From Desulfatitalea sp. BRH_c12 (GTDB lineage Bacteria > Desulfobacterota > Desulfobacteria > Desulfobacterales > Desulfosarcinaceae), in NCBI GenBank assembly GCA_000961655.1, contig LADR01000029.1:124001-188000 (forward strand): 64,000 bases of DNA, written 5' to 3'. A program made the translations under genes and the position numbers. Each line of letters begins with the position of its first letter. Position 1 is the first letter of the stretch. The notes beneath the pieces were generated by a model. That model made no database searches. It was not told where the DNA came from and saw only the letters and a list, made by a program, of their open reading frames with translations. Shown here one piece after another: positions 2,662 to 58,676 of this stretch.

Positions 2662-4047
2662 TCAGTAGGGCCGCGCCATGCGTAAAGGCGTTTCTACAGG
2701 TGTTCGACGGGCATCGGAATGAAGCGATAAGGATGTGCAGAAAGCCATGCTGAGCCATAACAGTTTGTTTAAGAACAAGGTTTCACCCATGCCCAGCAGA
2801 ATCGATGACATCAGACAGATCCAAAAAGGTGCCGCCAGGGGATTTTTTCGGGAAACACTGAAGCCTTTGGCAAGGCTGCGGCCGAGCAAAACCAGGTAAA
2901 GTACAAGGCCCACCAGCCCCAACTGGGCCCATACGGAGAGAAACATGTTGTGACTCGGCTTGTTCGCCATGCGCAAAAACCCCATACTGCCCTGCGCCTC
3001 TGCTTGTTCGTTTGAGCCACTGATACCGACTCCGAAAAGAACGTTATGCTGGATGACTTCCGTCCAGATCCGATGGGCGATGGTCAAACGCGAGCCGAAG
3101 TGGTCTTTCTGAAAACGGTTCGTCCAATTCAGATTGAAGAACTGGGTGGTCAGGATCAGCATCAACAGCCCGCACCCGGCAATGAGTCCTATAAGAGAGA
3201 ATAAGGCCCGCGTACTCGAAAATGCACCTTGCCCCTTGAGATAGACCACGGTGCAGACAAGCAGCGTGATGAAGCTGCATAGGATGGCGTTTCTGGACTT
3301 AATTAAAAACAGCGCTCCCAGGATATGCAGCACCGCGATAATACAAATCAGGCGTATCACTGCATTTTGATTTTTTTTGAACAAAAGGAACAGCACGCAT
3401 GGCATTAATTGGCACAATCCTATGCCGAGTTGATTAGGATTGGTGCGGCGATCAATCGAAATGCGATCGGCCCATTCGAAAAGAAAATTCTCATTGAAGA
3501 CAATCCCCAGGTAATAGGTACGAAGGCTCAAGTAAAGGGACAGCGTTAGTGCGATGTAGAGCAGGTATGTACATGCTTCAGGCTTTTTTTCTTCCCTTAA
3601 ATTTACAATGAGGCAATAGGTAAGCACATTGATGCCGATGGTGACAGATGCGATGACACTCGGCCGTATCATTTTTGAATAGGCGACACTCGCCAGGCAC
3701 AGTGCCAAAAATAACAACGGTAGAACGAGGGGCCGGATAGCCGTGTCCGGATTTCTGGCGTACGGATTGAAGAGAAAGCCTAACAATGCCGACACCGTGA
3801 CCACCCGCGATAACGTACCGATCTTTTCAAAACCGTAAATCATCAAGTGCTCACTGCCCGCACCTAAACAGGCCCCCATGCCGATTCCGAGCAATGGGTT
3901 CAAAAAACAGGCGCCCAGCAATAAAGCGAGCATCGGAATGGCCGCGAGGCCGTGAACATTGGCCGTCAACAAGGCCAGCAAGGTGACCCCGACGGCAACC
4001 AGGGCGCGCTGACTGGTCAGTGCAGCGCGGATGTCATGTGGATGCAT
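2662..4047 (-). CDS. O-antigen polymerase/ligase family membrane protein (Wzy/WaaL)
   Basis: An inner-membrane protein of 461 residues with about 10-12 hydrophobic segments. The central region has the Wzy_C/O-antigen-ligase pattern: a large periplasmic loop around residues 290-360 containing 'LFGVGISGSNEQAEAQGS' and 'KPSHNMFLSVWAQLG', the family signature around a conserved histidine. It would either polymerise repeat units or ligate the polymer to lipid A-core or a protein. Sequence alone does not separate these roles. The start overlaps the end of the preceding glycosyltransferase by 14 bases, showing translational coupling. Confidence 0.82.
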   Translation of the reverse strand: MHPHDIRAALTSQRALVAVGVTLLALLTANVHGLAAIPMLALLLGACFLNPLLGIGMGACLGAGSEHLMIYGFEKIGTLSRVVTVSALLGFLFNPYARNPDTAIRPLVLPLLFLALCLASVAYSKMIRPSVIASVTIGINVLTYCLIVNLREEKKPEACTYLLYIALTLSLYLSLRTYYLGIVFNENFLFEWADRISIDRRTNPNQLGIGLCQLMPCVLFLLFKKNQNAVIRLICIIAVLHILGALFLIKSRNAILCSFITLLVCTVVYLKGQGAFSSTRALFSLIGLIAGCGLLMLILTTQFFNLNWTNRFQKDHFGSRLTIAHRIWTEVIQHNVLFGVGISGSNEQAEAQGSMGFLRMANKPSHNMFLSVWAQLGLVGLVLYLVLLGRSLAKGFSVSRKNPLAAPFWICLMSSILLGMGETLFLNKLLWLSMAFCTSLSLHSDARRTPVETPLRMARPY

Positions 4048-5305
4048 GCGGCATGGCCGTTTTGTCGACGCTGCTGATCAGCGCCACATAGGCTCGGGCG
4101 GCACGTTCCCAGGTCAGCCCCACGACGGTGCCGGCGACATCTTTGCGCGATGATACCGGCTTGCGCAATGCCCCCAGAACCGCACGGATATCGTCGATCC
4201 GAATGCTCTCCAGGAAAATGGCGTTGACATCGTTCAATATTCCCGTCTCCTGGGCCAACGGCAAGGTGCGAGGTATGATGACGGGGGTCCCGCAGGCGAT
4301 GCTTTCGAGGAACACCTTTCCGAACCCTTCGCTGGAACTGGGCAAAATCATAAAATCCACCTGTTTCAGAATCGTCGCAATGTCCTTTTGTGACAAATAG
4401 CCGAGCATCTTGAGGTCGACGTCGTTTTGATGCGCTTCATGGAGCAAACGTTTCCGGTAATCCGGCTGTCCTTCCCCGATGCAGATATATTGGAACTTTT
4501 CTTTGTGATCGATTGCCGCAAGGGCTCTTATCACGAGCAGTTGACCCTTGTGTGGCTTCAGCGACGCGACGGTTGCCAGGTGCAGTCTATATGATCCTTG
4601 GACGGCGTGATCTTTTTGCTGAGTCGTTGCGGGGTTGGTAGGGTGGGTGCCATTGGCGTTGAAGATCTCGTTTCTGAATCCGTTGAGAATGACTTCGTTC
4701 CGGCACTGCCACTTTCCGTAATAATGCTGCCACTGTTTTCTATCCATCGAAGATATGTGCGTCACCGCCGCGAAGCGTTGCCGGGCACAAAATCTTTCCT
4801 GTCTGCGGACAGCGGGGGCTTGCCGAATGTTTGGATCCATGCCGGCGATACCATGCACGCGCACAATGATCCGGCGGCGGTCGATACCGGATAAATACAT
4901 GGCCAGAATGGCTCTTCCCGGCGTATGGGCGCTGACATAGTCGGGTTTCACTTTTCCAAAGGCGTAGTCGTATAGCAGGAAGCGTCCAAAAGTACTCAGC
5001 GGCGTCATCCCGAACACCCATCGAAAAAGCAATGCCAAGCCTGCATAGCGCAGCGTCCGCAGCGGATGGTTCGCCGCATGGGCACACAGCACTGACCAAG
5101 ACGTTCCGATCACTGTCGTTGCGCCGATGCAGCCGATTTTTTTTCGATAATCGGGTGCACACAGCACGGCCGCGACATTCATGTGCAAGGAATTGATCGC
5201 ATCGACAAGATCGAATATCCCGGTCGCAAGGCCGTGGGTGGCACCACCGCCCCACGCCTTGGGCAGCGCCCCCAGGGCGAGCACTGTGATGTTCCTGTCG
5301 GACAT
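4034..5305 (-). CDS. Glycosyltransferase family 4
   Basis: A retaining GT-B glycosyltransferase of 423 residues. The N-terminal domain has the glycine-rich 'GGGATHGLATGIFD' acceptor loop. The C-terminal domain has 'LATVASLKPHKGQLLVIRAL', 'ICIGEGQPDYRKRL' and the E-x7-E region 'PSSSEGFGKVFLESIACGTP', which binds the nucleotide-sugar donor. The start at 5305 follows AAAAGGAG at good spacing. The frame is open further upstream, but those codons overlap the preceding gene. It lies 10 bases after that gene in the glycan operon. The sugar transferred cannot be told. Confidence 0.87.
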   Translation of the reverse strand: MSDRNITVLALGALPKAWGGGATHGLATGIFDLVDAINSLHMNVAAVLCAPDYRKKIGCIGATTVIGTSWSVLCAHAANHPLRTLRYAGLALLFRWVFGMTPLSTFGRFLLYDYAFGKVKPDYVSAHTPGRAILAMYLSGIDRRRIIVRVHGIAGMDPNIRQAPAVRRQERFCARQRFAAVTHISSMDRKQWQHYYGKWQCRNEVILNGFRNEIFNANGTHPTNPATTQQKDHAVQGSYRLHLATVASLKPHKGQLLVIRALAAIDHKEKFQYICIGEGQPDYRKRLLHEAHQNDVDLKMLGYLSQKDIATILKQVDFMILPSSSEGFGKVFLESIACGTPVIIPRTLPLAQETGILNDVNAIFLESIRIDDIRAVLGALRKPVSSRKDVAGTVVGLTWERAARAYVALISSVDKTAMPHAST

Positions 5306-56837: not shown

Positions 56838-57452
56838 TTACGGTTCGTTTTTCGTGTCGGCTGTCTTGGAAACGGCTACCAGCGCGGGCCTCAGCAAGCG
56901 ATCGTGGATCATGTAGCCTTTCTGCAACTCTCTGACCACCGTGTTGGCCGGCTGGTCTTCGACTTCTTCTTGCATCATGGCCTGATGAAAATTGGGATCA
57001 AACGGCTGCCCTATGGCGTCGATAGGCGATACGTAGTAGCGTTCAAGTAACTTAAGCGTCTCGTTGAGCGTCAAATCGACGCCGCGCACCAATGGGTCAT
57101 CAGAGCCGCATTGTTGCGACGCAGAATCGATGGCGCGCTGCAGATTGTCCACCACCGTAAGCAACTCGCCGATGATCTTTTCATTGGCGTATTTAATGGT
57201 TTCCTGCATTTCGCGGGCGGTTCTTTTCTTGTAGTTCTCAAACTCCGCCGATACGCGCAACAGGCGTTCATAGTTCTCTTTGGCTTGCTGCTCGGCCTCC
57301 GTCAATTTCAGTGCCAAATCATCCAATGGAGACTGATCAGATGCACCTTCTTCGAGATGGCCGCCCTCGCCATGATCATTTTCTTCAATATTGCTATTAT
57401 TGTCGGCAGGCGCCATCTCAGTGCGATCCTGTGTGTCGGTCCTCTTGCTCAT
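56838..57452 (-). CDS. grpE: Nucleotide exchange factor GrpE
   Basis: Promotes ADP release from DnaK. The 204-residue protein has an acidic N terminus, a long coiled coil ('LALKLTEAEQQAKENYERLL'), the core 'SAEFENYKKRTAREMQETIK', and the beta domain 'FDPNFHQAMMQEEVEDQPAN' with 'TVVRELQKGYMIHDRLLRPA'. It is encoded 54 bases before dnaK on the same strand. Confidence 0.95.
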   Translation of the reverse strand: MSKRTDTQDRTEMAPADNNSNIEENDHGEGGHLEEGASDQSPLDDLALKLTEAEQQAKENYERLLRVSAEFENYKKRTAREMQETIKYANEKIIGELLTVVDNLQRAIDSASQQCGSDDPLVRGVDLTLNETLKLLERYYVSPIDAIGQPFDPNFHQAMMQEEVEDQPANTVVRELQKGYMIHDRLLRPALVAVSKTADTKNEP

Positions 57453-57618
57453 GCCCTCCGTGTCCTCCGTTCAAGGTGGCCCCTTACGAGAAAAGCCTTA
57501 GTCTTTTAAGTAACTTACAATATGTCTGCCTTAAAAAGTGCTCAGAAAGTAAGACGGGTTGCAGGGATGTCAAGACGCCCGCGGGAGCGGGAAATATCGG
57601 TAAAGATAAGGAAGGAGA

Positions 57619-57870
57619 TTGGTTGTGCACCCTTCTTCGAATCTGCTTAGACAGGATCCGTCCGCTTATAACCGGAATCGATCCGCGACACAAACCGCAT
57701 CACTTATCGCTGCTTCCTTCCGGACCTGACGAGGTTCGCAACCGTTTGTTGCGCGGCGGCCGGTCGGCAGACGAAACTGTTTTCAGCATGATCCTAGGAA
57801 GGGATTTCAGCCCCGCTAAAGCGGATTTCGGGATCAGGGCACCGCTAGCTCCCCACCTAGCACAACCAAG
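57619..57870 (-). ncRNA. ffs: Signal recognition particle RNA, large (Alu-domain) type
   Basis: The targeting RNA of the SRP, partner of Ffh. The S-domain hallmark GTCAGGTCCGGAAGGAAGCA reads on minus at 57711-57730. Upstream, GTGCTAGGTGGGGAGCTAGC (from 57864) and CGGTGCCCTG...AATCCGCT match the 5' Alu domain of Bacillus-type scRNA. The RNA ends pair over 10 bases: TTGGTTGTGC at 57860-57869 with its complement at 57619-57628, giving about 250 nucleotides. Short 4.5S RNAs of ~100 nucleotides lack this part. The promoter at 57877-57905 places the start near 57870. The exact 3' end is an estimate. Confidence 0.88.
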
Positions 57871-57876
57871 TCGCGG

Positions 57877-57905
57877 ATTATAAAGATGACTTATGTGTTT
57901 TTCAA
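57877..57905 (-). promoter_or_regulatory. Sigma-70 promoter of the SRP RNA
   Basis: On minus, TTGAAA (57900-57905) and TATAAT (57877-57882) are separated by exactly 17 bases. The predicted start is about 7 bases downstream, at the 5' end of the SRP RNA. Confidence 0.85.
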
Positions 57906-57982
57906 GGATTAATATCGAGGATGTCATCACCAGTGCAAAAAGGGACCGTTTTTATTTCACCCCAGGTCCATCGTGCTAAAAA

Positions 57983-58012
57983 CCCCGGTGATTCGGGTGG
58001 GTGGTCCGCGCC
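57983..58012. repeat. Degraded internal segment of repeat A
   Basis: CCCCGGTGATTCGGGTGGGT followed by GGTCCGCGCC closely matches 13285-13314 within the full copy, but the outer arms are missing. Confidence 0.6.
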
Positions 58013-58081
58013 AATCCAGAAAACAAATTCGGGTATCCTGAGCGAGCCATGTGGCGTAGGATCCCGAAATTTCCCCTATCC

Positions 58082-58325
58082 AGTAGGGTGGGCATCGCCC
58101 ACCATTATTTGAAAATGGTCATAGGTGATCGTGGTGCGGATGGTTTGATGCATGTCGAATTATCGCCGCGCCAATATCACAATATTAACAATATCAAAGG
58201 TGCGACTTCCTTTTTATCGTGGTAACTTACGCGGCGCCAGAGATTCCTTAACCTGCCGGAAAACCGGCATGCTTTGCGAATTCCTTCAATCCAGCGCGCC
58301 TATGGTGGTGGGCAATGCCCACCCT
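58082..58325. repeat. Inverted pair of short palindromes (REP-like)
   Basis: AGTAGGGTGGGCATCGCCCACC (58082-58103) and GGTGGGCAATGCCCACCCTAC (58303-58323) are each hairpins and are inverted relative to each other, about 200 bases apart. The arrangement resembles a bacterial interspersed mosaic element. Confidence 0.7.
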
Positions 58326-58445
58326 ACAACTCATAACAGCACGCTGCCTGCCAAGGTTTACATGCGATTGCCCTGCTCACCGGGCACATTGAGGTTGCGA
58401 GGCCGTTCTTATTCGGATATCATCTTGTTTTGCTAACTTAACTTA

Positions 58446-58676
58446 ACTTTCGGGATTGGCACGCAGTGAGGTGAGCAGGGCGTGTTGTCCGCGCCACAGT
58501 CAGCCGCGAGATTTAGTGAGGCTTAAGGTGTGCGTAGGGTGTTTGGGCCGCACTGTTTGAGCGCCAGCGAGTTTGCGGCCCGACCCTACGAACACCTTTA
58601 GCCTCACTTAAGCGAAATGGCGTGTGGCGCGGACAACCACGCCCTGCTCACCGGCGTTTGGAGCCCGAAAGTTGAA
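58446..58676. repeat. Full-length palindromic repeat A, copy 2
   Basis: A 231-bp near-palindrome. The outer arms are 58446-58497 and 58626-58676 (ACTTTCGGG...CCCGAAAGT). The inner arms are 58515-58555 and 58570-58608 (AGTGAGGCTTAAGGTGTGCG with its complement). The loop has 'GAGCGCCAGCGAG'. It matches 13271-13494 along its length, inverted. Its right end lies 44 bases before tilS. Confidence 0.9.

Follow-up and report, generated by a model that had tools for sequence, protein, structure and literature searches.

A large SRP RNA gene with an Alu domain in Desulfatitalea sp. BRH_c12 and the distribution of the long form in the Desulfobacterales

The available text of PMC4359368 describes the Alu domain of SRP RNA as typical of Gram-positive bacteria and as typically lacking in Gram-negative ones, and the expectation of a short, Alu-less RNA in a Gram-negative host, from which an earlier note on the present locus started, was therefore reasonable. 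The note had read a large SRP RNA with a 5' Alu block from a 64,000-nucleotide stretch of Desulfatitalea sp. BRH_c12 DNA (referred to here as the window) and had considered it odd for the group to which its host belongs. The locus thus raises two questions, namely whether the Alu block and the S domain belong to one long RNA and whether such an RNA is out of place in its lineage.

A large SRP RNA gene on the minus strand

The Rfam model Bacteria_large_SRP (RF01854) matched positions 57865-57623 on the minus strand with 145.6 bits (E 4.2e-23), above its curated cut-off of 60 bits, and the match spanned model positions 1-256 of 256 and was not truncated. The model for the small type (RF00169; own cut-off, 40 bits) matched the S domain only, with 60.5 bits (C18:181667-181765), and the covariance search with both families that the earlier note had proposed thus came out on the side of the large RNA. 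RF01854 was kept over RF00169 in the clan contest at the locus, and Bacteria_small_SRP, which describes the S domain only, is ruled out as the class of the window RNA by the presence of the Alu domain. A search of the genome with both models found one SRP RNA place, the same for each. The note had given no strand; the RNA is encoded on the minus strand, with the following features.

57619..57869, minus strand: large SRP RNA gene, 251 nt from one end of the terminal helix to the other (RF01854 match, and covariation in 62 sequences)
57877..57905, minus strand: sigma-70-type promoter, TTGAAA-17-TATAAT (agrees with the consensus at 11 of 12 bases; relatives have comparable sites in roughly this position)
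57860..57869, minus strand: 5' strand of the terminal helix, TTGGTTGTGC
57807..57867, minus strand: Alu (5') domain with helices H2, H3 and H4 (Alu-only model R1)
57667..57765, minus strand: S domain, the Ffh-binding hairpin (RF00169 match)
57619..57628, minus strand: 3' strand of the terminal helix, GCACAACCAA

The Alu-only model R1 matched the 5' domain with 86.0 bits (E 5.7e-23), the window's own sequence being one of the 62 from which R1 was built. The domain contains two hairpins with the complementary loops AGCGG and CCGCT, the Ffh-binding core of the S domain is conserved across the 62-sequence alignment, and the ends of the RNA pair over 10 bp (TTGGTTGTGC at 57869-57860 with GCACAACCAA at 57628-57619). 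The Alu block and the 10-base pairing of the ends had both been claimed before, and both hold. Further, the SRP RNA strand was more stably folded than 200 of 200 shuffles (z -3.68). We conclude that the window RNA belongs to a known RNA family, in which it is well formed and ordinary, and that it is unusual only when set against the E. coli textbook case.

We analyzed covariation in an alignment of 62 large SRP RNAs, comprising the window's and 61 from the phylum, which are long forms by choice because nearly all were taken from the best RF01854 matches. The structure that was counted had 83 pairs. Of 93 Rfam pairs mapped, 77 form standard pairs in the window and were kept except for three inner H3 pairs, and four pairs at the outer end of the terminal helix and five between the loops were added. 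For as many as 54 of the 83 pairs, two-sided changes occurred in at least one sequence, 86.8% of the cells were paired compared with 79.1% in shuffles, and none of 500 shuffles reached any of five covariation measures. All five measures fell when the 3' side was slid by 1-3 columns, a lead that is partly built in since the structure was taken from one of the 62 sequences. The terminal helix was paired in 93.1% of the cells, and both sides had changed in 7 of its 10 pairs; the two outermost pairs were non-standard in 26 and 16 of the 62 sequences. Within the Alu domain, changes on both sides were seen in two of three H2 pairs and two of four H4 pairs, and no variation was seen in three of the four pairs of H3 or in four of the five between the loops, which are therefore uninformative on the structure. 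By eye, the outer loop-loop pair was A-U in 58 sequences, G-U in three (L006, L026, and L077), and G-C in one (L020). The middle helices 7-9 were paired in only 48-69% of cells. At the level of sequence, the covariation favours one RNA of roughly 250 nt, and the position of the promoter and the terminal helix agree with a predicted transcript of 250-270 nt.

The promoter lies where the earlier note had placed it, at the predicted 5' end, with 7 bases between its -10 box and the first paired base of the terminal helix. A scan of 57450-58650 found three promoter-like sites, compared with 0.9 expected in shuffles; those on the minus strand were at 57905-57877 (11/12) and 58188-58159 (9/12), and none was found near 57770. 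In 30 of 34 upstream regions from the same order, the best promoter site (at least 8/12) ended 7-11 nt upstream of where the Rfam match begins, the best score was at least 9/12 in 29 of the 34, and its mean was 9.3, compared with a top mean of 7.8 in 200 letter shuffles. The 3' end of the RNA rests on the terminal helix because no terminator-like site was found on the minus strand in 57450-58650. Since grpE begins 166 nt downstream on the same strand (gap 57453-57618) with no such site in between, read-through into grpE-dnaK is possible. The SRP RNA gene sits between grpE and tilS, and both genes are also near the SRP RNA in Desulfobacterales records (GrpE, TilS, and FtsH in the window were named by Pfam; other gene names are our reading of the open reading frames). 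We also note a pair of 22-nt inverted repeats, GTAGGGTGGGCANNGCCCACC (58083-58104 and 58306-58327), between the SRP RNA and tilS; each arm of the pair is itself a hairpin, and the element is REP-like.

Distribution of the long form

In a sample of 242 genomes of the order, 219 matched RF01854 and 23 did not. When the matches were split by hand according to score, 163 of the 242 genomes had full-length large RNAs (E 6.0e-18 or better), with a further 56 at 6.0e-14 or worse. R1 matched 166 of the 242; a comparison by hand gave G455, G536, and G585 as the matches beyond the 163, and in G463, G475, and G489, which are among the 163, the R1 match was much weaker than in the rest. The view that a long SRP RNA is odd for the host's group is not supported by these counts. 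The RF01854 cut-off cannot separate long from short forms, since as many as 300 of the 395 genomes in the phylum sample passed it, and the Alu block was therefore tested separately. By RF01854 score, 67 of the 395 had full-length large RNAs (at least 116.6 bits, with the next genome at 102.3); R1 recovered these 67, all with at least 68.7 bits, ahead of the next match at 28.6 (lists compared by hand). Among the 60 nearest relatives of the window's genome, RF01854 scored at least 122 bits in 48 and lower in seven and gave no match in five. The R1 matches in these samples are not independent because many of the 62 source sequences of the model lie in them. Control searches with RF01854 were positive in 6 of 14 genomes (E. 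coli, Synechococcus, Thermus, Deinobacterium, Thermotoga, and Lactococcus), three of them over the cut-off, and gave no match in the B. subtilis genome; the genome search thus misses true cases, and absences are weaker evidence than presences. Two genomes had more than a single copy of a domain or gene: G539 has two full-length SRP RNA matches, on contigs C126 and C131, and G429 has a second S domain after the first, beyond a run of N (L079). Either could reflect duplication or assembly.

A scan with an Alu pattern matched at least 117 stretches. By their titles, the 80 matches listed comprised 65 Desulfobacterota, six Chloroflexota, four Actinobacteria (three titled Thermoleophilia), two Bacillota, and one each of LCP-89, Zixibacteria, and Calditrichota; the higher groups are our assignment, and titles may be wrong because most of the listed records are metagenome bins. 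Described species with strains among the 80 were D. alkaliphila M08but and Desulfocarbo indianensis SCBM. R1 matched 35 of 35 listed loci tested, as expected for loci found by the same Alu block. Rfam gave RF01854 in 18 of 18 listed loci tested, 17 of them uncut; the matches were in Desulfobacterota, Chloroflexota, Actinobacteria, Calditrichota, Zixibacteria, and LCP-89 records, and the single cut match, from Thermoleophilia, was truncated by the contig stretch. Among the titles and abstract openings searched, we found no report of an Alu-bearing SRP RNA in Desulfobacterota, which is a weak negative.

Over 255 nt, the window's SRP RNA shares 85% identity with the RNA of Desulfatitalea alkaliphila, its best nucleotide match among the 80 listed. 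The flanking proteins were also closest to Desulfatitalea among these matches, with identities of 89% (DnaK), 85% (SerA), and 79% (acyl-CoA ligase-like open reading frame) to L153 and of 82% (CoaX-like) and 85% (FtsH) to L131 (D. alkaliphila M08but). NCBI taxonomy places Desulfatitalea in the Desulfosarcinaceae, Desulfobacterales, a lineage of Gram-negative anaerobes, and the host that the earlier note had called an apparent Gram-negative anaerobe fits this description.

The Alu end among relatives and competing readings of the locus

Some relatives had SRP RNAs in which the Alu end was incomplete or missing. G401 (L060), from the window's own genus, has a long RNA with a decayed Alu block (R1, 38.1 bits), in which one H3 pair is broken and a loop is shortened; by eye, the terminal helix is weakened, and the S-domain core is intact. 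The SRP RNA of G401 is possibly a case of Alu loss in progress. In G036 (L066), from another family, H3 and H4 are missing and the terminal helix is kept, and R1 aligned across two internal deletions with 15.3 bits (E 0.029). By eye, G232 (L061) appears to retain a vestige of the 5' strand. Five further RNAs, L062-L065 and L067, have T-rich stretches after the S domain and, again by eye, resemble short forms; in none of the six loci did R1 give a match with an E of 1 or lower.

We followed the Alu state on a tree of Ffh with 90 rows (62 with Alu, 26 without, and two of unknown state), of which 30 were taken by rank and 60 were picked by hand so that Alu-less genomes were included; G401 was left out. 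G585, which has no RF01854 match, was set as Alu-bearing on the block found by R1, and scoring G455 as Alu-less on its weak RF01854 match, which gives 11 changes, was rejected because R1 found an Alu block there. The fewest changes of state on the tree were 10, and 9, 6, and 4 when branches under support 80, 90, and 95 were collapsed; the tree was built quickly from a single gene, and support was below 80 for 45 of its 87 inner branches. In 300 label shuffles, the mean was 22.6 changes and the minimum 18, so the Alu state follows kinship yet has changed several times. The change counts give no direction, and the remnants point to loss. From the remnants and the single-gene tree, we infer inheritance of the long form in the order, with several losses among relatives.

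These relatives bear on whether the working RNA of the window is instead a short, 4.5S-like S-domain RNA beside an Alu block that is a relic or a separate transcript. Short forms in the same order (L062-L065 and L067) and the decayed block in the same genus (L060) lend this reading some colour, but the window's own Alu block scores 86.0 bits with R1, a 10-bp helix joins the two ends and 7 of its 10 pairs show two-sided changes among the 62 sequences, and no promoter-like site was found near 57770, where a short product would start, the site at 57905-57877 having a position that is conserved in relatives (30/34). We consider the short-RNA reading very improbable. Recent acquisition of the large RNA from a Gram-positive donor appears a shade less probable still: the patchy distribution and the Alu pattern in Clostridiales and Chloroflexota records among the matches listed would suit a transfer, whereas the locus lies between grpE and tilS, neighbours that are also near the SRP RNA in Desulfobacterales records, its best match among the 80 listed is that of Desulfatitalea alkaliphila (85% over 255 nt), and large RNAs are present in most sampled genomes of the order. 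The explanation that we hold with high confidence is that the single SRP RNA gene found gives one RNA of about 250 nt, with an S domain for targeting and an Alu domain that most likely slows elongation, and that this long form was inherited in the order and probably lost repeatedly.

Proposed function and comparison with known systems

Binding of Ffh by the S domain and targeting of ribosomes to FtsY and the membrane are established elsewhere for the SRP RNA family, and the window's genome encodes Ffh (603.7 bits) and FtsY (344.9 bits). Leftward transcription from the TTGAAA/TATAAT promoter would yield one RNA of about 250 nt with both ends paired, as its sequence and covariation suggest. Given the conserved core and the presence of ffh and ftsY, the S domain would bind Ffh and bring translating ribosomes to FtsY and the membrane. 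By homology with the proposal for B. subtilis, the Alu domain most likely forms a tRNA-like head, extends to the ribosomal factor-binding site, and slows elongation during targeting. In the available text of the sources, the B. subtilis Alu domain binds the GTPase centre of the ribosome (PMC8881573) and SRP-linked slowing of translation is said never to have been demonstrated in B. subtilis (PMC4359368). PMC4359368 also reports where pausing occurs in B. subtilis, at 45-65 codons past the first membrane segment.

Searches for YlxM and for an association between HU and ftsY found no dedicated Alu-binding protein. YlxM (PF04297; search control positive in B. subtilis and L. lactis) was not found in the window's genome, and four of 60 relatives had only weak partial matches of 21.8-22.4 bits in frames of 202-362 amino acids; of these four, G413 reaches the cut-off of 22.7 only when neighbours in frame are counted. 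YlxM was therefore dropped as an accessory protein. The window's genome has 12 HU-family matches, and in L299 (contig C59) an HU gene (3525-3797, minus strand) lies directly downstream of ftsY (4122-5243, minus strand). Starting from 31 ftsY loci (30 and the window's own), three were dropped for a cut downstream flank and two for an unknown Alu state, and the pairing recurred in 13 of the remaining 26 loci of the order. As tallied by hand, HU followed ftsY in half of each group (8 of 16 genomes with Alu, 5 of 10 without it), and HU beside ftsY was rejected as evidence of an Alu partner for want of association with the Alu state.

The locus alone is ordinary; its significance is that it corrects the shorthand in which Gram-positive means a long SRP RNA and Gram-negative a short one. 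Repeated loss in one order would provide related pairs with and without Alu that could be used for studying SRP-linked slowing of translation, and, if true, would make the order a natural experiment on the role of the bacterial Alu domain. Recurrent Alu loss in the Desulfobacterales is a lead worth keeping. The available text of PMC1586193 considers how far the Alu domain can serve as a marker of deep phylogeny, states that no Actinobacteria have it, and asks for additional groups to be searched.

Compared with RF01854, the window RNA has the same Alu domain, terminal helix, and S domain, with no essential difference seen; the H3-H4 linker is GUA in the Rfam consensus and GAU in the window RNA. 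The B. subtilis scRNA (6S SRP RNA), compared through the available text of PMC8881573 and PMC8230904, has the same domain plan, and differs in that HBsu is the protein of its Alu domain (PMC8230904), whereas no partner was found for the window RNA. With E. coli 4.5S RNA (RF00169), the window RNA has the S domain in common (60.5 bits), but 4.5S RNA is of the small type without an Alu domain, according to the available text of PMC4359368, and the window RNA has one.
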